Source of the DNA: a virus
Direction: 5' to 3' (one strand)
IMG/VR virus record: IMGVR_UViG_3300043499_000015
Span: 1 to 23,516 of that record
Length of the DNA: 23,516 nt
Below are positions 8,347 through 23,368 of this stretch, one piece after another. The notes beneath the pieces were generated by a model. It saw only the letters and a program-made list of their open reading frames with translations, did not search any database and was not told where the DNA came from. Within the stretch, counting starts at the first letter, position 1; each line of letters begins with the position of its first letter. A program made the position numbers and the translations under genes.

Positions 8347-11300
8347 TCAGATGTTTGCCATCAGGCCATTGATGAAAGCTTGGCGCGAAGGACCAGCGGT
8401 CATTGCGGTGCCGTTCGGCAGCATGCGGCTTTGCCAAGTCACGACAGGCGGCGCCACGTAGTAGTTCTGGTCGGTGAGAACCTCGATCGTGAACAGGGGC
8501 CACAAGCCCGGCGCCTCCAGATGAATGTCCTGCTCGGTGCTCACCGAAATGAGGCCGCCGCTCCACATCTGCGTCGTCATGCCCGGAGACGGCAGAACGT
8601 CCAGCCCGCCGCCACCGACCACGCCGTTGAACTTCCAGAAGGCTGGGAAGACGCCAGAGGTCAGGTCAAGCTCGCGCACGCCGACCGTCTTGAGGTCGAT
8701 CCTGAACTGGAGACTGGTCTGACTGCCGTCGCCACCGATCGCGATCCCCCATCCGGGGAAGACCATCACGTAACAAGTCGGCAGAACCCCAGTGTAGGGG
8801 GTCGTGACGTTGACCTTGATTTTCTTGTAGTGCCCATTCGCCACAGAGTTTTGCGCGGCGCCGATGAACGAGGCGTCATACGTGCGCTTGGTGTACTCGT
8901 GCAGGCGCGTGCCGGCTGGCGCGGCAGACAGCTCCAGCACCTCGGCGCAGCCGGTGGTGTTGCTCACCGTGCAGATCGCGGCGTCGTGTGGCCGCAGCCA
9001 CAAGCCGTCTGGCGTGTACGTGCGCGTGGGGAAGTGACCTGACGGCCAGTCGGTGTGGACGCGAATGTCGCCAAGCGGCGCCGCCTCCGTCAGGGCGGTG
9101 ACGGTGAACATCCCCACAGACCCAACGGCGCCGTCGATGAAGAATATTTTTGCCCCGGGGATAGCCCACGTGGCAACGCCCAAGCCCCTGATCGCTGCCG
9201 GCACGGTGATGACGCCGCCCGACATCGTGCTGTCCGGTATGATGCCGGTGCCTGCGCCGCCGTCCATGGACTGGATGAACCGACCGGGCGTCCTGAAGCT
9301 GTCCACAATGCAGTCCGCCATGATCAGCTCGCTCGGCACGCCGTAGGCATTGCCGAACTGCCAGTCGTGAATTCTGCAGCCGTTCTTAAGCTCGAATTTA
9401 TAGGGCGTGCCGATGATCAGATCGATTTCGCTGTTGTCGAAAACAACGTCCTTGATGCTGTCCGCACTCTGGAACGCAACCAGCAGCCATCTGCATCCGG
9501 TCATGGTGAAGCGGTCGACAAGCTTGTCGACCTCCATGGTCCCTTGAGGAGCCGTGCAGTTGTTGAACGCCACCGACAACGCTATGGACGGGAACGGGCC
9601 ATACAGCCCTTTCCAGTGACAGTTGTTGAACGTATGGCGACCCGCCGACACGCCAGTCTGGCCATGGACCGCGATCGTCAGGTCGTTGACCACCTCGGTG
9701 TAGTCGAAGTGCGGATGCTGCGCATACAGCGTAGCCGGTCCGCCCATGCTTTGGTTCTCGCCCGGGCCCGGCGGCACCTCTGGCGAGTAGAGCGGCCACG
9801 TGTCGAGATATCCGTTGGACAGCGGCGCGTCGAACGACACGCGACCATAGTTCGGGCTTCCGGTGTCGCTGTCGATCGCAGTGATCCGGCGATAGTCAAA
9901 CCGCGCGAAGTTGGTCGGGAACCCGTAGTGCTGCAGGTCAAGACCGGACATCATCGCGTAGTCGCCGACGACGAACTTCGACACGTTGGCCGGCGTTTTC
10001 AATTTGACGAACGAGGCGCCGGCAGCAACCGTGTCGGTGTAGCCGGAATGGCCGGAGAACTGATACTGGCAAAACGACAAGAACCGGAACTGGCCAGCAA
10101 GCGTAGAGCCGTGGCCGTTGACGGTGATGCTCTTGACCCCGTCGAAGATCTCGACGTGCGGACAGATCAGATACGTGCCGGTCGGGATCTCCAGCACGAT
10201 GTCCAAGCCCTGATGATCGGCAGTGAAGTTGGCGAACATGGGGGCGCTGTTAGTGCCCCACGACACCAGCACGCCGGGCTCAGCCGACAGTGGCGTGATG
10301 CAATTGTGAGCCAGCATTAGCTGCGTTCCGCCGGCACCCCATCCGGTGATGGTCGAGGTCAACGCACCGCCACCTTGCGGCCCGGCTTCGCCTGCCTGAC
10401 CAACGCAGATTGTTTTTCCGATGTAGTTGGCGGCAACGCCCGGCCAGATCGGAGTCGAGGACGTCAGCACGTTCGTCGAGATACTCAACGTCGCCTGCGC
10501 CCACTGCGCGTCAGGGACGGCGAAGTAGTCCGTGACGATGTTCTTGGCTGTGATGCCGTTCCACGGCAAGTATCCGGCGGGGGCGCCAACGGAGGCCGAA
10601 AGATCGGTCGTCAGCGAACCTATGCCGGTGCCGTCATCCGACACCGTGACGGCCGCAAACAACGGAGCCCCGGTAGAAACAGTCGAAATGTCATACCCAC
10701 CAATGTTCGCGACGGGGTCAGCTGACGCGCTGTTGTTCCAAAGACCGTTATTGAGACGGAAGAATATCCGATCGGTATCCAAGTCGACTGCCGTATCGAT
10801 TACGTCTCCGGCAACCGAATATGAAAGCGCAATATTAGCTAGAACGGTGCCGCCGTTATATAAAACAATGCCGCCGGCATAAGGGGCAATGTAGCCAACG
10901 GACGGAGTGTCGCCGCCGACATACTGCGCGTTAAGGCCGGTCGCGCCGCCACAAATCCCAACGCTCGCGCCAGAGCTGGATAGATTAGTCGTAATTACCG
11001 TCCTGAAAAACCATTTTCCAGCCGTCCGCGACACCACACTGCGCACCGTGGAGTGGCCGGAGCCGGGGGCAGTAAGAGCCACCGTCCTGTTGAAATTGCT
11101 GAGAGAAATGCGTGTAGCCTTGTCGAGCGGGTTCCACGCCCCGACCGGCTCCACCACGTTGACCACGGTGATCGTAAAATTCTTGTTGGGTGCGGGCGGC
11201 GTGACCCCGCTGACGCCGATCGTGATCGCGTGGCTGGACGCTGTCTCATAGTCTAGAGCGCCGGCCACCGTGACGTTGCTGCCGGTGATGGCGAACTTGC

Positions 11301-12147
11301 CGCCTGCGCTGTCCACCAGCGTATAGGTCGGGGTGCCGGTGAATGCGTTCGCGAGCGACAGCGCGCCCACCACCGTGCCGGGGCTGACTTCCTCGTTGAC
11401 GGACGTGCTGGAGAGCAGGATCACGGGCTCAAGCACGTCCACAACTGTGATGGCGAACGTCTTGTTCGGCGCTGCCGGCGTTATCCCGGAGACGCCAACC
11501 GTGATGTTGAACGTCGGTGTGGTTTCATAGTCGATGACGCCGCCCACGTTGAGCAGGGCGCCCGAGAGCGCCACCTTGCCTCCGGCGTCGTCCACCAGCG
11601 TGTAGACCGGCGTGCCGGTGTAGGTGTTGGCGAGCGACATCGTGCCGATGTTGACGCCGACGGTCGTGGCCTCGTTCACCGTCGATCCGGTGAGCACAAT
11701 CACTGGCTCCAGCACGTCGATCACGAGGATGGTGATCACGCGACTGGCCGTAGCCGGCGTCGTCCCGGAGACGGCCACGGTCACGTTGTGATAAGTCGCC
11801 GTCTCGTAGTCGAGTAGAGCGTTGGTGCGCAGGAAAGAACCGCTGATATTGAACTTACCGCCAGCGTCATCGCTCAACGTGAACACCGGCGTGCCGGTGA
11901 ACGCTCCGGTCACCGATAGCAGGCCCACCGTTGTATTGACCGCGGCCGTCTCCAGCACCGACGCCGCGGTGATGCCGATGACAGGTCCGAAGGCAAAGCC
12001 AGTCACCGCCAGCCCGCCGCCGGCAGGGGCCTCCGTGACGGCGACCCCGTATCCGGGAGGGGCCTCCGTGCATGGAAGCCCGTACCCGCTGGCGGAAATC
12101 GTCACGGGCAAGCCGCCTGCCGCAACCTTGTTAATCGGCATGCCCAT
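8347..12147 (-). CDS. Large tail fibre/spike with cadherin-like repeats, SPRY-like and beta-helix domains
   Basis: This 1266-aa protein is probably the main host-binding fibre or spike. Residues 11-53 hold four 10-11-residue Gly/Tyr units (such as GYGLPCTEAPP and GYGVAVTEAPA). Residues 57-335 are three 93-residue repeats of cadherin-like type, each with TGTPxxTL, DxAGGK, DYET and ending (L/V)EPV. Residues about 340-530 resemble an SPRY or concanavalin-like domain (GKWFFRTVI, GYIAPYAGGIVLYNGG, IFFRLNNGLWNN, YLPWNG). From about 600 to 1000 is a beta-helix-like region (IVLEIPTGTYLICPHVEI, FNNCHWKG, VFDNSEIDLI, IMADCIVDSF), followed by a beta-rich C-terminus (1050-1266). Adhesion repeats up front and a beta-helix behind suggest a virion-anchored stalk with a receptor-binding or depolymerase region. 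GGAG lies 9 bases before the start; Met3 is an alternative start. Confidence 0.82.
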   Translation of the reverse strand: MGMPINKVAAGGLPVTISASGYGLPCTEAPPGYGVAVTEAPAGGGLAVTGFAFGPVIGITAASVLETAAVNTTVGLLSVTGAFTGTPVFTLSDDAGGKFNISGSFLRTNALLDYETATYHNVTVAVSGTTPATASRVITILVIDVLEPVIVLTGSTVNEATTVGVNIGTMSLANTYTGTPVYTLVDDAGGKVALSGALLNVGGVIDYETTPTFNITVGVSGITPAAPNKTFAITVVDVLEPVILLSSTSVNEEVSPGTVVGALSLANAFTGTPTYTLVDSAGGKFAITGSNVTVAGALDYETASSHAITIGVSGVTPPAPNKNFTITVVNVVEPVGAWNPLDKATRISLSNFNRTVALTAPGSGHSTVRSVVSRTAGKWFFRTVITTNLSSSGASVGICGGATGLNAQYVGGDTPSVGYIAPYAGGIVLYNGGTVLANIALSYSVAGDVIDTAVDLDTDRIFFRLNNGLWNNSASADPVANIGGYDISTVSTGAPLFAAVTVSDDGTGIGSLTTDLSASVGAPAGYLPWNGITAKNIVTDYFAVPDAQWAQATLSISTNVLTSSTPIWPGVAANYIGKTICVGQAGEAGPQGGGALTSTITGWGAGGTQLMLAHNCITPLSAEPGVLVSWGTNSAPMFANFTADHQGLDIVLEIPTGTYLICPHVEIFDGVKSITVNGHGSTLAGQFRFLSFCQYQFSGHSGYTDTVAAGASFVKLKTPANVSKFVVGDYAMMSGLDLQHYGFPTNFARFDYRRITAIDSDTGSPNYGRVSFDAPLSNGYLDTWPLYSPEVPPGPGENQSMGGPATLYAQHPHFDYTEVVNDLTIAVHGQTGVSAGRHTFNNCHWKGLYGPFPSIALSVAFNNCTAPQGTMEVDKLVDRFTMTGCRWLLVAFQSADSIKDVVFDNSEIDLIIGTPYKFELKNGCRIHDWQFGNAYGVPSELIMADCIVDSFRTPGRFIQSMDGGAGTGIIPDSTMSGGVITVPAAIRGLGVATWAIPGAKIFFIDGAVGSVGMFTVTALTEAAPLGDIRVHTDWPSGHFPTRTYTPDGLWLRPHDAAICTVSNTTGCAEVLELSAAPAGTRLHEYTKRTYDASFIGAAQNSVANGHYKKIKVNVTTPYTGVLPTCYVMVFPGWGIAIGGDGSQTSLQFRIDLKTVGVRELDLTSGVFPAFWKFNGVVGGGGLDVLPSPGMTTQMWSGGLISVSTEQDIHLEAPGLWPLFTIEVLTDQNYYVAPPVVTWQSRMLPNGTAMTAGPSRQAFINGLMANI
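11143..11979 (-). repeat. Three tandem 279-bp (93-codon) repeats in the fibre gene
   Basis: The fibre gene carries three in-frame tandem units of 93 codons each (11979-11701, 11700-11422 and 11421-11143). The DYET motif falls at residues 113, 206 and 299 and the closing (L/V)EPV at 146, 239 and 332, so the period is exact. Long stretches are nearly identical, for example the codons for AFTGTP, YTLVDDAGGK and NKTFAITVV. Such arrays can expand or contract by recombination and would change fibre length. Confidence 0.85.
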
Positions 12148-12152
12148 GACGT

Positions 12153-12653
12153 TCAGCTCCCGTAGCTGGGATGGCTAGCGTTCGGCGTCTCGCTGTAGGC
12201 CGGCGCTACCACGCCGCGCTGGCTCAAGCGCCCGTGCGCCGCGTCGACCTTGGACGTCAACCCGGAGAACTCCGCCTTGCCGGCCAGCTCGGCCGCAGGC
12301 GTCGTCACCGGCAGTGTCGGGATCCGGACGGCGGACTGCGCCACCGCGCCGTTGAGCGGATCGGCGAACGCGATGATGCCAGTAGGCGTGACGTCAGCCG
12401 CAGGAGCCGCAGCCGGCGTGAGCCCGGTCTGCGTGGGCGGTGTGCCCTGATAGACCACCGGCACGTTGGTCGGCGGCGTCGGGTTGGCCTGCAGGATGGT
12501 GGTGGTGCGCAGCAGGTTGCTCGCGGGAACGGCCTGCGGGTCGATGACCTCGTCCTGATCCTCCTCGACCTCCTCCAGCCACTGCTCCTCGATCTCGTCC
12601 GGGTCGTCGTAGTTGCTCTTGGCTTTCGCCTTCGCCTTCGCCTTCTTGACCAT
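12153..12653 (-). CDS. Small fibre-associated protein, paralog of the adjacent 230-aa protein
   Basis: This 166-aa protein has a Lys/Ala repeat (VKKAKAKAKAK) and an acidic segment (DPDEIEEQWLEEVEEDQDE) up to residue 38, then a block (41-163) that matches the neighbouring 230-aa protein: AVPASNLLR, ANPTPP, YQGTPPT, ADPLNGA and a closing NASHPSY. Over the first 34 residues of the block 23 are identical without gaps. The KAKAKAK run comes from a 6-bp tandem repeat at 12625-12642. AGGAGG lies 6 bases before the start. Position between the paralog and the fibre suggests an adaptor or decoration protein of the adsorption apparatus; the function is unknown. Confidence 0.7.
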   Translation of the reverse strand: MVKKAKAKAKAKSNYDDPDEIEEQWLEEVEEDQDEVIDPQAVPASNLLRTTTILQANPTPPTNVPVVYQGTPPTQTGLTPAAAPAADVTPTGIIAFADPLNGAVAQSAVRIPTLPVTTPAAELAGKAEFSGLTSKVDAAHGRLSQRGVVAPAYSETPNASHPSYGS

Positions 12654-12669: not shown

Positions 12670-13362
12670 TTAGAGCTTGCGCATTACCCTGAAATTATCG
12701 AGCAGACAGGCGCTCAGGTTCGTGGCGAGCAAGCCAACTGTCTGCGCGCTTGCTGTCGTCGTCATGATCCCGCCGAAGTGCCCCGCAACGTTAGACTGCG
12801 GCACGGGGAAGGTCGTCCCGCCAATGATGACGGAGACAACGCCGACGCCATCGGTCGTAACGACATCGAAAGCATAGACGTAGTCGCCCGCCGTGATGGC
12901 TGCTGCAGCCGGGCGGATGACTTGGCCGGCGCCGGATCCGCTCATGTTGACGTTGCCGCGGTTGATGTTGGCCCCGCCGGTCAGTGTCCACCCCGTGCCG
13001 TTCAAGAAGTCGCCATTAGTCACCAGATCGGCGCCCGTCGTGAGGTAGCTCGGGTGCATGCCGTTCGGGCTCTCGACATAGGCGCCGCTGACGCTGTGAC
13101 CCGTGACGCGACCGTCCGGGGTCGATGTCGTCACTTCCGTGCCGTCGGACTCGGACCGGCCAGACAATTCCGGAGCCGCGGCGCCATTCAGCGGATTGGC
13201 AAACAGCGCCGGGTCTTGCAAGGTCGACGTCTGCACCGTCCCGCCAAGCGCATACGGCGTCGGCGGCGTGCCTTGGTAAAGCGCCGCAACGTTGCTGGGC
13301 GGCGTTGGATTGGCCGTCGTCACGGTGCGAACGCGATCGAGGTTGTTTGCTGGTACGGCCAT
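12670..13362 (-). CDS. Small fibre-associated protein with C-terminal jelly-roll-like domain
   Basis: This 230-aa protein begins with the block shared with the 166-aa neighbour (VPANNLDR, ANPTPP, YQGTPPT, ANPLNGA, NGMHPSY at residues 3-106). Residues 111-230 form an extra beta-rich domain opening with LVTNGDFLNGTGWTLTGG, a pattern known from carbohydrate-binding (galactose-binding-like) jelly-roll modules, and ending LLDNFRVMRKL. I chose the ATG at 13362 rather than the longer frame up to 13461, because it forms a TGATG junction with the upstream stop, has GAGG 7 bases before it, and the extra residues are shadow sequence. A sugar-binding role in adsorption is inference. Confidence 0.75.
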   Translation of the reverse strand: MAVPANNLDRVRTVTTANPTPPSNVAALYQGTPPTPYALGGTVQTSTLQDPALFANPLNGAAAPELSGRSESDGTEVTTSTPDGRVTGHSVSGAYVESPNGMHPSYLTTGADLVTNGDFLNGTGWTLTGGANINRGNVNMSGSGAGQVIRPAAAAITAGDYVYAFDVVTTDGVGVVSVIIGGTTFPVPQSNVAGHFGGIMTTTASAQTVGLLATNLSACLLDNFRVMRKL

Positions 13363-16300
13363 CAGTATGCCTCGTATCTGCTGGGGTCGACGAGGGAGCC
13401 CATGCCGCCGGCACCAGCTGTGCCTGCCACCGCGAGCCCGCCCGGATGCTTGCGCATCCATTCCTGCAGCCGGTCCTTCATCTCGTTGGTCACCGGCTCT
13501 GTCTTGGTGGCATGCGTCCCGCCGCCGGGGAAGTAAAGATGCGGTGCGGCCTCGTAATACTGCGGCTTCTTCAACGTCGCCATGCGACTGGCGTGCATGG
13601 TCGGGGCGATGATCTGGTGCGGGACCTGCATGCCGAGTGTGGCGACGTCGGTGCCGCCGACCGCAGTGTCGTAGGCCGGATGGTGCGACTTGACCGTGCC
13701 GATCGACGGGTCGACGCGCGACATGGTCAGGCCGGCGGAGCCGGGTGGCGCCGTGATCATGCGCGGATCCGTGTTCCAGACGCGCAGCTCACCGATGTTG
13801 GGGAAGCCGAGGTCGCGCGCGGTCTTGGTGTCCATGGCCTTGACCAGCTTGGCGCGCTGCGGCTGCGGCGAAGCCTCGATCCACGCCCTGAGCGCAACCT
13901 CGTCCTTCAATCCGGTTTCCGGGAACGGCAGCTTGGAATTGGCGGCCGTGTTCCAGTCGGAATGCATCACCTTGACGAGGTGCTCGTTCGCCGTGGTCGA
14001 GACGCCCTTGCTCTTGGCCGCCTGCAGGGCCGTGTCGACCATCTGCATCGAGCTGTCGAGGTACTGCTTGCCGCCGGTCATGTAGGTCAGCCATGGCACC
14101 TTCCCGCGGCTTTCGACGTCCCGCGCGATGTTGAGGATCTCGCCCATCGGACCCTTCATGCTGGCCCACACCGGGCTGGCGCCCGGATGGCCCTCGATCG
14201 GCTTGCCCAGCATGTTGCTGGCGTAGCCCGGGCCGCCGTGGCGCCCGACCGGCTCTTCGAAGGGCAAATTCTTACTGCCGTGCAGCTTGCCGCCGGCCCC
14301 GGTGGCGTCACCGGCGCCGAAGATCAGCTCGGCGTTGGCGAGGTCTTTTTCGATATCGATGGTGCGCGGGTTGATGATCTTGGAGCCCTTGATGATCGGG
14401 CTGTCCATAGTGCTGATCGGCGTGCCGCCGACGTTGGAGAACGGATGCGTCGTGGTGTTCAGCTTGGGCTCGCGCTCCACGCCGCGCCACGCCTCGTCTG
14501 CGGCCTTGCCGCGCAACAGAGGAGCGGACATCTGAACTTCGGGATCGACCTTCGGCTTGACCGGGTGCCATTGATTATCGGCGCCCAAATACTCCAGCTT
14601 TTCGGCCAGCACCGGCTTGGTAGAATACAGATCACCCGTGCCCTTTTCGGCCATGGTCGAGTGCGCGTCACGCTTCATGCGCAACAACACAGGGGTGCCT
14701 TCTTCCGGCGCGAACTGCCACGTGTTGTCTGCGGTCGAGGTGAAATAGTTGCGCTTTTCCGCTCCACCGTCAGGCCAGACCCGCTGATCGGTGAACTCGT
14801 GCGGCTTGTGCGTTCTCAGCTTGCCACCTTCGGCAATGTCCCAAACGTTCTCGCGACTAGTGGCGTGATAGACATAGTTGGGATCGGACGGCTCAGGCCC
14901 GCGCACCTTCTTGAATTCAGGCAATGATGTCTGCGCCTGCGACGGTCCGGACAGCTTGTTGAACTCGACCGTCTGCTTGTGCATCGGCACGTTCATTTGA
15001 GTGCCGGGGTAGACTGCTGCGGCTTGCTGCGGCGTGTAGTCCGTGCGCTCCATCACGACATTGGCGGGGTTCTCGCCAGCCGAACGATTGTAGTTCTCTT
15101 GCCCCGCTTGGCGCATCGACTGCTTTTCATATTCAATCTGGCTCTTCTGGGCAGACTGTTGATATTTCATGTAATCTTCGGGGGTCTTGTTAACTCCCTT
15201 CGCGGCATAGATGTCCTTGTATTGCTGCCAGTTCAGCACTGCCGGCCCGGTTGCGTTTATCTTCTTGTAGATCTCATAGCCCGGCTCGCCCGGCCGAAAG
15301 GTCACGTTCGGACTGGTCCCGCGCGGAAAACCCTCGATTTGCTGGATGCCGTGCTGGATCTCGTGCAGCAGCGTTTTGAACGTGTCGCCGCGCGCCGTCT
15401 CTTCCTCCGCGCGATAGGCGATCCCCGCCGGGTTGTTCGGGCCGCGCGGCGTGTAGGACCCCTGCGCCCACATCGTCATGTCTTTCGACACCGGCATCTG
15501 GCGCAGCTCGGGGTAGGCCTTGAACAGCTCGGGGTGGTTGATCACGTCAGGCAAAAAGAGCTTCTCTCCCTGAGACAGCTTGAGCTGCGTCTTGAAGCTG
15601 TTGCCAATGTAGCTGGCGTTCAGGTCCGAGATCTCGTTCATCCACTTGCCGTCAGCACCACGCATCCAGCCCGTCTCGCGCCAGACCCGGTTCGGCGGCA
15701 GGCCGTTGCCCTCCATGGCCTCAGCCAGCTGGCGCTTGGGCAGGTCGGCTGACTTGGACAAGCTGCCGCCGAAGATGCCGGCGGAAGCTCCCGGGCGCGC
15801 TGCGGCGAAGGTCGTGCCGATGCCGGCGAGGTTGGCCGTCAGGCCTATGCTCTTCCGCGCCTCCTGCTGGCGGGCCTCGTCCACCTGCTGCGGCGTGGCG
15901 CCGGGGTCGCTGATGACGCGGCCGGCCTCGACGGCGCCGCCCACGTAGTCGTTCAGTTCGTTCACGCCCCAGTTCAGCCCGCGCACCGGCGCTGGCTGGT
16001 TCTCCATAGTGGGGGTGGGGGATCCATACCCGCCCCGCCACATCTGGCGCGGACCGGCCGTCGCATCGCGGGGCGCTGCTGGCGCTGTAGATGCTGTAGA
16101 TGCCGTAGATGCTGTAGATGCTGCCGGCGCCGTGAACCAGTCCCTGACGCCCTTCACCAGCCCGCCAAGTGCGCCGCTGCCGCCCTGCTGGTCGACGTAG
16201 GGCAGGCCGAGACGCTCGCCGTAGGTCGGCTGTCGGGCCTCACTCTGGTCTGGCTCAAACAGCCGGCTGGAAGGCCTTCCTTCTGCGCCAGTCGGCGATC

Positions 16301-16433
16301 CCCACCCGACATCCGTGATCGGCGGCGCCTCTACGCCGCGCGGCCGCACCGTCAGCCGTAGCGGCTCAGGCGGCAGCATGCCGGGTTCGTTGCCGAGGAT
16401 GGGGTCGACCAGCTCGTCGCGCGGGTCAGCCAT
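13362..16433 (-). CDS. Large polyvalent-type protein with HEIQH metallopeptidase motif and ART-like segment
   Basis: This 1023-aa protein resembles the large polyvalent proteins that phages carry in the virion and eject. The N-terminus (1-240) is Pro/Ala-rich with an AST repeat at 106-117. Residues 248-270 (NRVWRETGWMRGADGKWMNE) open a domain that continues to TFKTLLHEIQHGIQQIEGFP, with HEIQH at 357-361 matching the HExxH zinc-peptidase motif. Residues 520-590 (YVYHATSRENVWDIAEGGKL, then RNYFTSTADN and VLLRMKRD) resemble an ADP-ribosyltransferase-like fold. A later region (AGDATGAGGKL, GGPGYASNMLGK, VWASMKGP) recalls another polyvalent-associated domain. The C-terminal sequence MGSLVDPSRYEAY is echoed at the end of the lysozyme. 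It starts inside the lysozyme gene (8-base overlap). Activities are inferred from motifs only. Confidence 0.75.
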   Translation of the reverse strand: MADPRDELVDPILGNEPGMLPPEPLRLTVRPRGVEAPPITDVGWGSPTGAEGRPSSRLFEPDQSEARQPTYGERLGLPYVDQQGGSGALGGLVKGVRDWFTAPAASTASTASTASTAPAAPRDATAGPRQMWRGGYGSPTPTMENQPAPVRGLNWGVNELNDYVGGAVEAGRVISDPGATPQQVDEARQQEARKSIGLTANLAGIGTTFAAARPGASAGIFGGSLSKSADLPKRQLAEAMEGNGLPPNRVWRETGWMRGADGKWMNEISDLNASYIGNSFKTQLKLSQGEKLFLPDVINHPELFKAYPELRQMPVSKDMTMWAQGSYTPRGPNNPAGIAYRAEEETARGDTFKTLLHEIQHGIQQIEGFPRGTSPNVTFRPGEPGYEIYKKINATGPAVLNWQQYKDIYAAKGVNKTPEDYMKYQQSAQKSQIEYEKQSMRQAGQENYNRSAGENPANVVMERTDYTPQQAAAVYPGTQMNVPMHKQTVEFNKLSGPSQAQTSLPEFKKVRGPEPSDPNYVYHATSRENVWDIAEGGKLRTHKPHEFTDQRVWPDGGAEKRNYFTSTADNTWQFAPEEGTPVLLRMKRDAHSTMAEKGTGDLYSTKPVLAEKLEYLGADNQWHPVKPKVDPEVQMSAPLLRGKAADEAWRGVEREPKLNTTTHPFSNVGGTPISTMDSPIIKGSKIINPRTIDIEKDLANAELIFGAGDATGAGGKLHGSKNLPFEEPVGRHGGPGYASNMLGKPIEGHPGASPVWASMKGPMGEILNIARDVESRGKVPWLTYMTGGKQYLDSSMQMVDTALQAAKSKGVSTTANEHLVKVMHSDWNTAANSKLPFPETGLKDEVALRAWIEASPQPQRAKLVKAMDTKTARDLGFPNIGELRVWNTDPRMITAPPGSAGLTMSRVDPSIGTVKSHHPAYDTAVGGTDVATLGMQVPHQIIAPTMHASRMATLKKPQYYEAAPHLYFPGGGTHATKTEPVTNEMKDRLQEWMRKHPGGLAVAGTAGAGGMGSLVDPSRYEAY
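16084..16119 (-). repeat. Four 9-bp tandem units in the polyvalent gene
   Basis: Four adjacent copies of GCTGTAGAT (plus strand, third copy GCCGTAGAT) encode the Ala-Ser-Thr repeats at residues 106-117 of the polyvalent protein. The unit keeps the reading frame, so slippage would lengthen or shorten a flexible linker without breaking the gene. Confidence 0.9.
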
Positions 16434-17325
16434 AGTCGTACCTCATAGGGTCGACCAAGGCGCCCATCTCGGCGACGGGCTGCTGCGGCAGGAGCCTGTC
16501 GTCCCGGTACGGCGCCTCCAGTGGCCGCGCGCGGGGCTGCGGCACGCCTCCGGGAAAGACCGGAGGCGCCGGAGCGCCGGGTGGCGTTTGCGCGACGGGA
16601 GGAGCCCCCACCACAGCTGACGTTACGGCAGCGCGCGGGTCAGGTTCGCCGCCGCTAACTACCGGCGGTTGCCCGCCTAAGCCGCCGCTGGGTGCTTGAG
16701 GTTGTCTGCTCTTTGAGATGTATGCGGCCCCGACATCCCCTAGGGATGCGATGCCGCCACGAAGGCCCCTTTGTGGGCGGGTGCCCCACATCTCACGCAG
16801 TTGGTCATCGGTGGGCCGCGTTCCACGTGAAACAGCAGGCTGGCCGGCTTGGGGAAGAGGTAAGGAAGCCGGCGCAGCCCCCGTTTGCGGTTGCGAGGGG
16901 TCGCCGCCGAAAACGTTACGGGCGAAGGTGGCGCGTGCGGGGCCACTGTCGTCCCCGTAGCGAATGACAGGATGAAGTGCGGCGGATGCTTCGTCAATCG
17001 TGCGCGCGCCCCGAAACGCAGCGGAGTTGCCTTTTTCCGTGGTGTTCATCTCATGTGAGATAAAATCAGCCTGAACGCCGGGATCCGTCCACGGCAGGCC
17101 AGCCTTGGCGGCGAACTGCTGCAGCGCCTCAAAGCGCGGGCCGCGCCACTGCATCAGGCCGTAGGCGCCCTCGTCCTTGTTCATGGCGTTGGAGGCGAGC
17201 CCGCTCTCGGCCTGCAAGTTGCCGACAACGGCCGCGGCCTGCATGCGGGACATGCCGCCCTTCATCAGGCGGTCCATGATGAACTTGGGATCCGTCGTCT
17301 GCGCGGTGCCGCCGTAGAATGGCAT
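16426..17325 (-). CDS. Virion-associated lysozyme (phage tail lysozyme family)
   Basis: This 299-aa protein probably cuts peptidoglycan during DNA ejection. Residues 13-140 match the phage tail lysozyme pattern: FIMDRLMKGG, then AAAVVGNLQAESGL with candidate catalytic Glu40, NKDEGAYGLMQW, a helix FEALQQFAAKAGL, ADFISHEM, and HPVIRYGDDSGPARATFARN. Residues 140-290 are Pro/Gly-rich linker, and the C-terminus is MGALVDPMRYDYG, echoing the polyvalent protein. The frame is open to 17505, but I chose the ATG at 17325, because it lies one base past the upstream stop (TGACATG) and the 60 extra residues are an Arg/Ser/Pro shadow of the 109-aa gene. No signal peptide is present, which fits a virion enzyme rather than the lysis endolysin. 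Confidence 0.82.
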   Translation of the reverse strand: MPFYGGTAQTTDPKFIMDRLMKGGMSRMQAAAVVGNLQAESGLASNAMNKDEGAYGLMQWRGPRFEALQQFAAKAGLPWTDPGVQADFISHEMNTTEKGNSAAFRGARTIDEASAALHPVIRYGDDSGPARATFARNVFGGDPSQPQTGAAPASLPLPQAGQPAVSRGTRPTDDQLREMWGTRPQRGLRGGIASLGDVGAAYISKSRQPQAPSGGLGGQPPVVSGGEPDPRAAVTSAVVGAPPVAQTPPGAPAPPVFPGGVPQPRARPLEAPYRDDRLLPQQPVAEMGALVDPMRYDYG

Positions 17326-17326
17326 G

Positions 17327-17656
17327 TCAGGGTGCCTTGGAATTGCCAGTCGCGAGGGTGTGCGCGCGCTTCTTGCCGGCCTGCGTTCGCCGTACCTGCT
17401 GGTACTTGATGAAGGCAGGGCTGTTCTGGAACAACTCCGTCTCGGCGTTGGTGACGGCCGCGGCGCAGGCGTCGTAGATGGCGAAGTGCCGCTTGTTCTC
17501 CTCAAAGATCTCCTGCTCGCGCTTGAGCGCGCGCTCCCGGTCCTGCCGGTAGTGCCTCGCCAGCTCGTCCGCCTCGCGCTTTTTCTCAGCCGCGACCTCG
17601 GCCAGCACCTGAGCGCGGATCTTGGCGATGAACTTCAGGCGTTCCTTGCGCCTCAT
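17327..17656 (-). CDS. Coiled-coil protein between portal and lysozyme, function unknown
   Basis: This 109-aa protein is nearly all helical and highly charged (KIRAQVLAEVAAEKKREADE, then RQDRERALKREQEIFEENKR), with no Gly or Pro from residue 8 to 60, so it probably forms a long coiled coil. The C-terminus is basic (VRRTQAGKKRAHTLATG). An excellent GGAGG site lies 6 bases before the start, and the start overlaps the portal stop as ATGA. A role in portal assembly, scaffolding of the core or ejection is possible from position; I do not recognise a family. Confidence 0.72.
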   Translation of the reverse strand: MRRKERLKFIAKIRAQVLAEVAAEKKREADELARHYRQDRERALKREQEIFEENKRHFAIYDACAAAVTNAETELFQNSPAFIKYQQVRRTQAGKKRAHTLATGNSKAP

Positions 17657-20052
17657 CTTCCACCTCCGGGAAATTTAGGCATCATCTTGGCCTTCTGGGC
17701 CTGATCGAACTGGCTGATCTTCATGCTGCGGTTCAGGACGTTGTCCTGCTGCTTCTGCGCCATCTGCTCGCGCTGCATGCTGTTCTTCTCCTGCATGCCC
17801 TGCGCCATGATGTTCTGCTTCTGCGCGTCCAGCTGGCCCTTCATCCGGGAGGTCTGCTGGTCGATCGCGCCCTTCTGCGCGTCACGCTGGATCTGGGCGT
17901 TGATCTGCATGATCTTGGCCTGACGCTCTTTCTCGTTGCCCTCGTATTCCAGCTGCGCGATCTGCTGCTCGTTCTGGATCTTCTGCGTTTCCATCTGGCC
18001 CTTCATCTGCAGCTCCGCGATCTTGATCTGGCGCTCCTTTTCGTTCTCCTGCGTCTGCCAAGTCATCTTCTCGCGCTCGACCTGCGCCTTGGTGGCTTCG
18101 GCAGCAGCCGTGTCCTTGGCGTTCTTGGCATCCGGTCCGCCCTGACCAGCCTGACCGGCAGACGCCATCATGGTCTGCACGGCGTCGTCGATCGCGTTGT
18201 CGAGCTGGCGCCCGACACGGTAGGGCGCGACACCGAACTTGAGCAGCTCGCCGGCGAAGTTGGCCAAGGCCGGCAAGGCCGTCACCATGGTGCCGATCTG
18301 CTGGATCATCGGGGACAGTACCTGCAGGAATTCAGCGCGGGACTGCTTCTCTTTCTGCTCGTCGAACTGGATGGTGCTGTCGGTTTCGATGTCGAGGACG
18401 AAGTTGCGCGCGCGATTGTCGCGCAGGAACGTCATCACGTCCTCGTAGGTCGGCTTGCTGGCGAAGCTCTGCAGCTCCGACTGCGCCTGCTGCAGCGCCT
18501 GCTGGATCTCGGCCGCGGGATCGGCTCCCCCCGGCGCCTGCGGGCCGGGAGGAGGTCCGCCTTGGCCCATCGCAGGAGGGCCTGCCGGCGGAGGAGCCTG
18601 CAGCTGCTGCATGCGCTGCTGCGCCTGCTGCTGCTGCATGGCGAGCTGCTGCTGCTTCTGCATGACCTGCATCATGTGCTCGGCCTTGCGCGGCAGCTGC
18701 GTCTGGCTCATCGCCATGATGGTTTCGTCGTCGAACTTCTCCGTGATGATCTCGGTCGTGATCAGCACGCACTCCCGCGACACCCGGGCCATCTCGGCCT
18801 GCTTGTCCTTGATGCGCACCGAGCCGCTTTGCATCTTGAGCTGCTGTGCCCCGAGCGTCTCGTTGGGATCCGACGAGCCGCGCATGATGTCGCTCAGGCC
18901 CATGACTTGGTAGATGTCATCGATGATCTGCTTTCGCAGCGTGACCAGCACGTTGATCGTGTTGGCGACCATGTCGATCGGCATCCAGATGATGACTTCC
19001 TTGCTGCCGCCGAAAGCGGCCCAGTCCGGGATCGGCACCAGCACGCGACTGTCCGAGGTCGTGGCGAGCGCCTTCTCGATCGCGTCGGCCATGCTGTTGC
19101 CGCCGCTCGGATAGAAGCCCTTCACCTCGATGCTGCGCGACAGCGCGTGAATGCGCCCGGTGAGCTGGTTCAACTCGTCGAGCTGGTCGCGGTAGTAGAG
19201 GATCTCCGGCACCGGAACGAGACTGCCGGGCTGCGTGGTGCCGTAGGCCGGCCGAGGACATGGGAAGTAGCCCTGCAGCTCCAGATGCGGCTTGGCGTCG
19301 TCGAGCAGCACGTCGACGCCCTCACTGACCCAAACCACGTTGCCGAGGCCCTTGTGCCAGATCTCCCAGACCTTGGTGCGCTCGCGCTCGTCCGCGGCGC
19401 CGATGTCGCGCTTTTCGCGGTCGATCTTGTATTCGGCTTGGTCGTATGCGTCCCCGGAATACTTACTGAAGCGCTTTTTCATCTCCTCCCGGGTCAGGTA
19501 GCTCGCGGCCGCGACCCACTGCACCTCGTACCAGTTGCGCGCGGGATCATGCAGGAAGTCGTGGCGGTCCTTGTGCTCGATGCAGACCTTCTCGGGTTGA
19601 CTGCCCTTGGCTTTCTCATGGCGCAGCCACAGCGCGCCGCGGCCGTGCAGCACCATGTCGTCGCGCACCAGCATCAGGGCAGCGTGGATGTAGGTCAGGT
19701 CGAACGCCACGATCGCGGCGCGCTCCGCCACCTCTGACGCGGCTTGGAAGACCGGGCGCCGGTCCTTGAATTTTGGTACTACCACCGGCGTCGGAGGGCG
19801 CGCGTACACGCTCGGCTTCAGCACTTCCATGTTGGCCCAGAACATCTGGAATTCCCGCGGCCGGGCCGGGTCGCGCAGGCGCTCCAGATTGGCGTACATC
19901 TTGTCGATGTTGTCGCAATGGTCCTGCCATTCTTCGAAGACCTTTTCGGCCTCCGTCAGCATGTCAAACCACACCTGAGCGTTCTTCGGCTCGGTGAAGA
20001 CGTTGACTTCGTCGCGCCCCAATGGCTGGGGATCGGCAACCCTGTCGGCCAT
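17653..20052 (-). CDS. Portal protein with extended Gln-rich C-terminus
   Basis: This 799-aa protein probably forms the twelve-fold DNA channel at the head vertex. Typical podovirus portal features are an N-terminal ENLERLRDPARPREFQ-like helix region, AERAAIVAFDLTYIHAALML, GRGALWLRHE, the QGYFPCPRPAYGTT segment (about 260-274), the helix DQLDELNQLTGRIHALSRSI, and MGLSDIMRGSSDPNETLGAQ followed by QLKMQSGSVR (about 385-413). Residues 463-515 are Gln then Pro/Gly-rich low complexity, and 650-790 are a long Gln/Lys/Glu coiled coil, perhaps equivalent to the barrel of P22-type portals. I chose the ATG at 20052 because it follows the upstream stop as TGACATG with AGGGG 5 bases before the ATG; the frame itself is open to 20115. 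Confidence 0.87.
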   Translation of the reverse strand: MADRVADPQPLGRDEVNVFTEPKNAQVWFDMLTEAEKVFEEWQDHCDNIDKMYANLERLRDPARPREFQMFWANMEVLKPSVYARPPTPVVVPKFKDRRPVFQAASEVAERAAIVAFDLTYIHAALMLVRDDMVLHGRGALWLRHEKAKGSQPEKVCIEHKDRHDFLHDPARNWYEVQWVAAASYLTREEMKKRFSKYSGDAYDQAEYKIDREKRDIGAADERERTKVWEIWHKGLGNVVWVSEGVDVLLDDAKPHLELQGYFPCPRPAYGTTQPGSLVPVPEILYYRDQLDELNQLTGRIHALSRSIEVKGFYPSGGNSMADAIEKALATTSDSRVLVPIPDWAAFGGSKEVIIWMPIDMVANTINVLVTLRKQIIDDIYQVMGLSDIMRGSSDPNETLGAQQLKMQSGSVRIKDKQAEMARVSRECVLITTEIITEKFDDETIMAMSQTQLPRKAEHMMQVMQKQQQLAMQQQQAQQRMQQLQAPPPAGPPAMGQGGPPPGPQAPGGADPAAEIQQALQQAQSELQSFASKPTYEDVMTFLRDNRARNFVLDIETDSTIQFDEQKEKQSRAEFLQVLSPMIQQIGTMVTALPALANFAGELLKFGVAPYRVGRQLDNAIDDAVQTMMASAGQAGQGGPDAKNAKDTAAAEATKAQVEREKMTWQTQENEKERQIKIAELQMKGQMETQKIQNEQQIAQLEYEGNEKERQAKIMQINAQIQRDAQKGAIDQQTSRMKGQLDAQKQNIMAQGMQEKNSMQREQMAQKQQDNVLNRSMKISQFDQAQKAKMMPKFPGGGR

Positions 20053-20053
20053 G

Positions 20054-20257
20054 TCAGCCCCTGAGCCCGGGAAGGTGAAGCCCGCCGCCTCCGGCGAACT
20101 GGAGCAGGATGCCAATCAGGATGATCACCCCGATCGCAACCAGAACGATAGTGGCGATCTGCATCAGCGGAGGAGGCAGCGGGATCTGCTGCAGCAGCCA
20201 CCACAGGAAGATGACAGCTATGACCAGAATGACGAGGTAGACCAGCATGCTGATCAT
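20054..20257 (-). CDS. 67-aa two-helix membrane protein (possible holin or membrane pore)
   Basis: This protein is dominated by two hydrophobic stretches, residues 1-20 (MISMLVYLVILVIAVIFLWW) and 33-54 (QIATIVLVAIGVIILIGILL), joined by a short Pro-rich turn (QQIPLPPPLM). The C-terminus is Gly-rich and short. A perfect AGGAGG sits 5 bases before the ATG, the strongest ribosome-binding site in the window. Size and topology suit a small holin or a membrane component used at ejection, but there is no positive-charge tail and no endolysin beside it, so the role is open. It lies between an 82-aa hypothetical protein and the portal gene. Confidence 0.72.
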   Translation of the reverse strand: MISMLVYLVILVIAVIFLWWLLQQIPLPPPLMQIATIVLVAIGVIILIGILLQFAGGGGLHLPGLRG

Positions 20258-22750: not shown

Positions 22751-23368
22751 TTACTCTCCCCTCTCCTGTGGCGTCGTCAGCTCCCGCCCGTGGACGGGGC
22801 ACTTCAGCCTTCCCCAAGCCATTTGCTCAACTTTTACCTTGGCGACGAAGCCGCAGGCACCGCAGCTGACGTTGGTCATCTTGGGCGTCTTCTGCACCCG
22901 GTAGTCGACAGCCCATCCGGCCTTGAACCTCGCTGCTGGAAGGGGTCCCAGTCGCGCAAGGACGTCCGCCCATAGCGTGCGGAACAGCGCACCCTCCGTT
23001 GTCGCCCTCATGGGCCCTTCCAGCCCCAGCGACGTCGCCAGCGCCTTGAACGGCTTTCCGTGCTTCACGGAATGCGGCAGCGCGGCGTGGCACAGCTCGT
23101 GAACCAAGATGCCGCCGACCCGCACGGGATCCGTCTCCGCGGCCGTGATCCAGATCTCCCGGCCATTGTCCTCCGTCACGGCGTCGGACCAGCATAGGCC
23201 GATATACTTCTGCTTCGCCCTGTGCGGCGGGCAGATCGCGGCCCGGATCCTAGGAGGCAAAGGCTTCCCTGCAAGCACGAACTTACCTCTAGCCAATTCG
23301 ATGAATTGACTACACCACGCATCCCGCGTGAGGGCAGGGAGAGGCTGGCCAGCGAGCGCATTGATCAT
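22751..23368 (-). CDS. SprT-like zinc metallopeptidase with C-terminal zinc ribbon
   Basis: This 205-aa protein has the HExxH zinc-peptidase motif in VHELCHAALPHSVKHGKPFK (HELCH at 90-94), with further His99 and His103 available as the third ligand, and the following KALATSLGLEGPM typical of phage SprT-like proteins. A C-terminal zinc ribbon follows, with Cys169-x-x-Cys172 and Cys190-x-x-His193. The family relates to SprT/Spartan peptidases, which act on DNA-bound proteins. GGAG lies 9 bases before the start. It stands outside the packed structural operon, separated by a leader with two inverted repeats, so it may belong to an earlier-expressed set. The substrate is unknown. Confidence 0.82.
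   Translation of the reverse strand: MINALAGQPLPALTRDAWCSQFIELARGKFVLAGKPLPPRIRAAICPPHRAKQKYIGLCWSDAVTEDNGREIWITAAETDPVRVGGILVHELCHAALPHSVKHGKPFKALATSLGLEGPMRATTEGALFRTLWADVLARLGPLPAARFKAGWAVDYRVQKTPKMTNVSCGACGFVAKVKVEQMAWGRLKCPVHGRELTTPQERGE

Follow-up and report, generated by a model that had tools for sequence, protein, structure and literature searches.

What allows a phage protein to enter the host together with the DNA, and can the signal for such delivery be recognized in the genome of an uncultured phage? This question is raised by a gene in the IMG/VR virus record IMGVR_UViG_3300043499_000015, of which positions 1 to 23,516 were analyzed (the whole 23,516-nucleotide stretch is hereafter called the window). 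The gene lies at 13362..16433 on the minus strand and encodes 1,023 amino acids, with an ATG start and a frame running from 16433 to 13362. An earlier note had described its product as an ejected-type polyvalent protein combining a HEIQH zinc-peptidase motif with a possible ADP-ribosyltransferase (ART) segment. The open reading frame (ORF) is genuine, and every motif quoted in that note was found where it had been placed; a third domain, constant ends, and an exchanged middle are features that it missed. The reading that we favor, and consider rather probable, is that the gene encodes a late polyvalent effector of a podovirus-like phage, which would travel in the virion head and enter the host with the DNA; its C-terminal tail would be of the kind that docks both the effector and the virion lysozyme, and its middle would serve as a cargo slot.

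An exchanged middle between constant ends

To compare the gene across its lineage, further contigs were located by a scan with the lysozyme encoded directly upstream. Wherever the gene downstream of the lysozyme is complete in this lineage, its product opens with MADPxDEL ... R[IL]TVRP ... GRLFEPD. In the window, this N-terminal block (MADPRDEL ... RLTVRPRGVEAPP ... RLFEPD) covers residues 1 to 70 (16224..16433, minus strand), and it is common to the polyvalent proteins of the lineage whatever their middle; L148 retains only its first part, and the block was not seen in any other ORF of the fetched loci. At the other end, the lineage effectors close with a Gly/Ala-rich segment followed by [MLI]G[SAG][LI][VA][DKA].

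Between these ends, the content changes from phage to phage. The window effector carries a zincin-like domain, an ART, and a domain at residues 640 to 1000, while L159 carries a zincin, an ART-PolyVal domain, and the 640-1000 domain. L004 joins the same ART as the window to an ART-PolyVal-like domain; L148 has ART-PolyVal-like sequence by eye and can be aligned to the latter half of L004; and six further members (L064, L067, L150, L160, L163, and L165) combine a zincin with other sequence. The window's ART was present in one of nine lineage records searched, that of L161/L004, with which the window shares 76% identity over the ART and elsewhere only the N-terminal block. The borders of exchange are abrupt: L159 and L160 match at 66% identity for about 570 residues, then share nothing detectable, and agree again at 86% identity over the last 22, and L163 and L165 match at 76% identity for about 576 residues, beyond which there is no match. 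In L151 to L154, the effector gene has been lost, leaving a deletion scar in which its first codons run into a tail copy that is out of frame. The effector is thus dispensable, and since the lysozyme of these phages keeps its own tail, that tail is independent of the effector. Downstream of the lysozyme, the lineage has a slot with constant ends, the middle of which is exchanged between phages or deleted.

The C-terminal end of the slot recurs on the lysozyme. The effector tail, MGSLVDPSRYEAY, occupies residues 1011 to 1023 (13365..13403, minus strand), so that the effector ends in ...GGMGSLVDPSRYEAY and the lysozyme in ...AEMGALVDPMRYDYG. A regular expression for the tail matched 54 of 6,559 ORFs over all fetched loci, contigs reached through several loci being counted repeatedly, and 53 of the 54 were the lineage's lysozyme or the ORF after it. 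In five records of nearly 44 kb, a pattern coding for GSLVDP occurred only at the lysozyme-polyvalent locus, deletion scar included, and a reversed control gave zero matches. When all gene tails of one phage were ranked by likeness, the lysozyme-effector pair headed the ranking in 8 of 10 phages (sharing the top rank in L157) and took third place in the other two. Thus, a short peptide is common to two otherwise unrelated proteins of one virion locus, the lysozyme and the polymorphic effector, and to these only. Codon pairs in the tail core, lysozyme against effector, were synonymous in 28 cases, identical in 19, and nonsynonymous in 18; because the codon changes are mostly synonymous, the likeness is kept at the peptide level. 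In each of two clades, lysozyme and effector carry the same choice of V or A after the leucine (the L163 lysozyme has Gly), which fits a co-change of the two tails, though it is confounded by descent. From these sequence comparisons, the tail is a candidate C-terminal virion address, analogous to the capsid-targeting sequences (CTS) of T4 and P1.

Could the tail instead be a gene-junction element, a site of translation coupling or a recombination anchor for cargo swaps that is merely translated? Its last codons contain a Shine-Dalgarno-like GAGG and overlap the start codon of the next gene, and since they carry that gene's ribosome site and start, the RY...YG end of the tail may be constrained at the nucleic-acid level. 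The scar in L151 to L154, where only the first codons and the out-of-frame tail copy are left, would also suit such an element. However, the codons vary mostly synonymously while the peptide is preserved, the ribosome-binding stretch is downstream of the conserved MGSLVDP core, and the tail is found on the lysozyme and effector only, being absent from the other junctions examined. We therefore regard a junction element as unlikely. Besides the overlap, two points weigh against reading the tail as a protein signal: the tail-bearing phages are related (two clades) and hence are not independent, and the tail match of the second clade, taken alone, is weak (L160 and L161 are the two phages in which the pair ranks third).

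Domains of the effector

The first domain of the window effector, LPD23 with a zincin-like metallopeptidase, spans residues 205 to 498 (14940..15821, minus strand). Pfam LPD23 (PF18838) matches residues 220 to 273 (E value, 2.4e-14; 53.3 bits against a gathering cut-off of 27) and is the sole Pfam family matched in the polyvalent protein; RETGWMRGADGKWMNE begins at residue 252, and a PHROGs family of unknown function matches residues 216 to 374 (E value, 2.7e-12). LPD23 followed by HEXXH is a frequent arrangement in viral contigs, with at least 470 confirmed relatives. The HEIQH motif at residues 357 to 361 (15351..15365, minus strand) is kept in relatives, and HEXXH together with a downstream GE pair is invariant in one alignment of relatives and kept in almost all rows of a larger one; the zincin alignment used here replaced mixed zincin/ART alignments, which were discarded as misaligned. 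Conservation of the GE pair makes Glu454 of AGE (15072..15074, minus strand) the candidate third zinc ligand, retained in the window protein where the usual GEvEAR motif reads GENPAN. An AlphaFold2 model of residues 205 to 640, built from 30 sequences, was confident (mean pLDDT, 89.4), and VIA-align gave weak zincin matches for the region 247 to 466: IrrE (Z score, 5.4), PprI (5.2), lethal factor (4.8), and 6mdw (4.5), with the DNA-protein crosslink (DPC)-repair protease among the matches in this range of 4.5 to 5.4. A relative, L017, had a sub-threshold match to the putative metallopeptidase family DUF6782 (E value, 1.3e-4). These results support the zinc-peptidase domain proposed from the HEIQH motif, and residues 205 to 498 are predicted, from consistent but low fold scores, to be a zincin-like metallopeptidase.

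The ART-like domain follows at residues 511 to 629 (14547..14903, minus strand) and was delimited by phrog_3147, a 14-sequence alignment, and ART-fold matches. PHROGs phrog_3147, a family of unknown function, matches residues 511 to 625 (E value, 6.8e-23), and Bxz1-type mycobacteriophage proteins have a C-terminus with 37% identity to this stretch. With these matches and that of LPD23, the quoted motifs, which for the ART start at residues 522 (YHATS), 536 (GGKL), 561 (RNYF), and 582 (VLLR), exceed chance. The 14 ART relatives have in common His523, WPD (553-555), Tyr563, Arg585, and the E...TGD stretch (596-601); His523 and Tyr563 are invariant, and Glu596 and Asp601 are both conserved. VIA-align rows for residues 517 to 629 (model residues 313 to 425) belonged mostly to ART families. 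The best match was KptA/Tpt1 (Z score, 8.8; root mean square deviation, 2.6; 86 residues aligned), entries of which ranged from 8.8 to 7.7, followed by CC0527 (7.7) and then cholera A1, DarT, pertussis S1, and Arr; Foldseek alone placed CC0527 (E value, 7e-3) and KptA (E value, about 0.05) at the top. No sequence-level match to the KptA and DUF952 families was found in the window. Profiles of the ART, zincin, and C-terminal domains compared with PDB sequences gave chance matches only, such as designed beta-barrels and flagellin, so the fold evidence for the zincin and ART comes from structure comparison. The segment proposed earlier at residues 515 to 600 is thus upheld by homology, invariant motifs, and the modeled fold, and by predicted fold and motif residues 511 to 629 are an ART of a family without a Pfam name.

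A third domain lies at residues 640 to 1000 (13434..14516, minus strand) and was delimited by profile relatives and their alignment; no family in Pfam or PHROGs matched it. A profile search found it in 36 viral loci, nearly all at 23 to 29% identity, and in other viral polyvalent proteins it is joined to InPase, ART-PolyVal, or LPD23-zincin domains. Asp709, Trp756, Asp793, Arg884, and His918 are invariant in an alignment of 21 sequences. Its model was of modest quality (pLDDT, 66), had no fold relative in the PDB (best Z score, 3.9), and matched only viral protein models of unknown function.

Genomic setting and proposed delivery

The order of the late operon is terminase, portal, lysozyme, polyvalent gene, small structural proteins, tailspike-like protein, scaffold, and capsid. 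The virion lysozyme (16426..17328, minus strand; its start was set by comparison with relatives) matches Phage_lysozyme2 (PF18013; E value, 3e-24), followed by a disordered-looking linker and the tail MGALVDPMRYDYG. The portal protein (17653..20115, minus strand) matches phrog_12082 (E value, 2.4e-182). Lysozyme and portal are thus the neighbors that the earlier note had named. The start of the polyvalent gene overlaps the end of the lysozyme gene and its stop overlaps the start of the next gene, so that it is packed tightly in the operon.

In the mechanism that we propose, a podovirus-like phage would load its head with the effector, the parts of which are, in order, the N-terminal block, LPD23-zincin, the ART, the 640-1000 domain, the Gly/Ala-rich segment, and the tail. 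Lysozyme and effector would be docked to one common assembly or virion partner by the tail, probably together with the N-terminal block, and both would be ejected with the DNA into the host. There, the zincin may cleave the effector itself or host proteins, and the ART may ADP-ribosylate host macromolecules, while the middle would serve as an exchangeable cargo slot. The domains, conserved residues, module exchange, and the common tail with its specificity are computed from the records, while packaging, delivery, catalysis, and targets are suggested by analogy. Entry into the cell with the DNA, already proposed from the position beside portal and lysozyme, is made more plausible by the tail in common with the virion lysozyme. 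Weighing on the other side, in addition to the points raised for the tail, the phage is known here from sequence records alone, no curated Pfam ART family reached its cut-off in the polyvalent protein, and the zincin fold scores are low (Z scores, 4.5 to 5.4), although the matched metallopeptidases agree with the HEXXH motif.

A protein made late might instead never be ejected and have its role in the cell that produces it or in particle assembly, such as that of a maturation protease. The late-gene location would be expected in that case too, and P1 DdrB is proteolytically processed prior to packaging (discussed in PMC5512222). Against this, ART and zincin domains encoded beside virion genes are a usual mark of packaged polyvalent effectors (PMC5512222, PMC9503650), and the loss of the gene in L151 to L154 argues against an essential role in assembly, leaving a non-ejected protein improbable. 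That one or both enzyme-like domains are catalytically dead binding modules is less likely still: either Glu596 or Asp601 may be the third catalytic residue of the ART, comparison with Arr and KptA sequences having been ambiguous, and the EAR of GEvEAR is replaced in the window, but all 14 ART relatives retain His523, Tyr563, and the E...TGD acids, and almost all zincin relatives retain the HEXXH and GE pair.

Judged by the portal, the named phages closest to this one are Rhizobium phage RHph_I3_18, Microcystis phage Mwe-JY13, Bradyrhizobium phage ppBjS10J-1, and Mx8. The capsid, too, has its closest relative in RHph_I3_18 (57%), and the terminase in RHph_I3_18 (59%) and ppBjS10J-1 (57%); these relationships suggest a Rhizobiales host. 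A search of a bacterial genome collection with one pattern did not find this ART domain, so hosts could not be read from prophages. In RHph_I3_18, a related lysozyme domain lies within a 659-amino-acid protein annotated as a putative tail protein (L143:12351-14330), without the tail motif and at the far end of the structural module; the gene order therefore differs there. Downstream of the polyvalent gene, two adjoining small proteins (12153-12653 and 12670-13362, minus strand) have a common N-terminal pattern, NPTPP.NV...YQGTPPT ... PLNGA ... HPSY, and seem to be two copies of one structural protein that is kept throughout the lineage. The tailspike-like protein (8347-12147, minus strand; 1,266 amino acids) carries several N-terminal cadherin/Ig-like repeats (Pfam Cadherin; E value, 1.8e-7). 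A short protein at 22751-23368 (minus strand), the second HEXXH protein of the window, has a HELCH motif and a Cys-rich end and resembles SprT-like metalloproteases.

Comparison with known systems

Phage polyvalent proteins are an already known class, to which the window protein belongs, as the earlier note had supposed: LPD23, the PHROGs matches, and the ART evidence indicate that a single polypeptide, encoded in a late-gene, virion context, holds at least two effector domains unrelated to each other. To this class the present analysis adds an unnamed third domain, the cargo slot, and, less expected, the common C-terminal tail. A bolder proposal is possible but tentative: that the slot is a polymorphic one with a C-terminal address on the lysozyme and on every cargo, a counterpart of the T4 and P1 CTS, and that residues 640 to 1000 are an undescribed type of polyvalent enzyme. 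How phages select the effectors loaded beside their DNA is known for few systems. If the proposal is true, the lysozyme-effector tail would give a simple rule by which the delivered proteins of uncultured phages could be predicted, as well as a tag for cargo loading that can be tested. The 640-1000 domain adds a recurrent unnamed part to the polyvalent repertoire. A literature search, itself of incomplete coverage, found no description of a shared C-terminal tail of this kind.

Individual domains have relatives in other settings. KptA/Tpt1, DUF952 (CC0527), DarT, and Arr resemble the window domain in their ART fold (Z scores, 8.8 to about 5) but have no sequence-level match to it and act on different substrates. 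Bxz1-type mycobacteriophage proteins such as ET08 gp72 carry the same ART-like domain at 37% identity to the window, but have other upstream domains (annotated in the records as ParB-like), lack LPD23-zincin, and belong to a different phage type. The N-terminus of ET08 gp72 (L006:2819-4504; YRGISV ... GRHWTTD) looks ART-like as well, so this ParB-like protein may hold more than one ART.

The polyvalent proteins of Iyer et al. (2017; PMC5512222) likewise unite metallopeptidase (MPTase), ART, and LPD domains in one polypeptide and are encoded beside virion genes; injection has been proposed for polyvalent proteins and ARTs beside head genes (PMC5512222, PMC9503650). Compared with that set, the window protein adds a constant N-terminal block and a tail in common with a separate lysozyme, and its 640-1000 domain has no Pfam or PHROGs entry. 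In the T4 internal proteins and Alt with their CTS, and in P1 with its DarB signal (PMC3012670, PMC9024508), diverse delivered proteins are united by a short conserved address, as may be the case here. The T4 internal proteins are diverse, with only the CTS conserved (PMC3012670), and in P1 DarB the first 30 residues are enough to direct a reporter to the capsid; the authors of that study suspected a common signal among Dar proteins, although the N-termini gave no consensus (PMC9024508). The T4 and P1 signals were shown by experiment, and that of DarB is N-terminal, whereas the candidate address in the window, read from sequence, is C-terminal and stands on the lysozyme as well.

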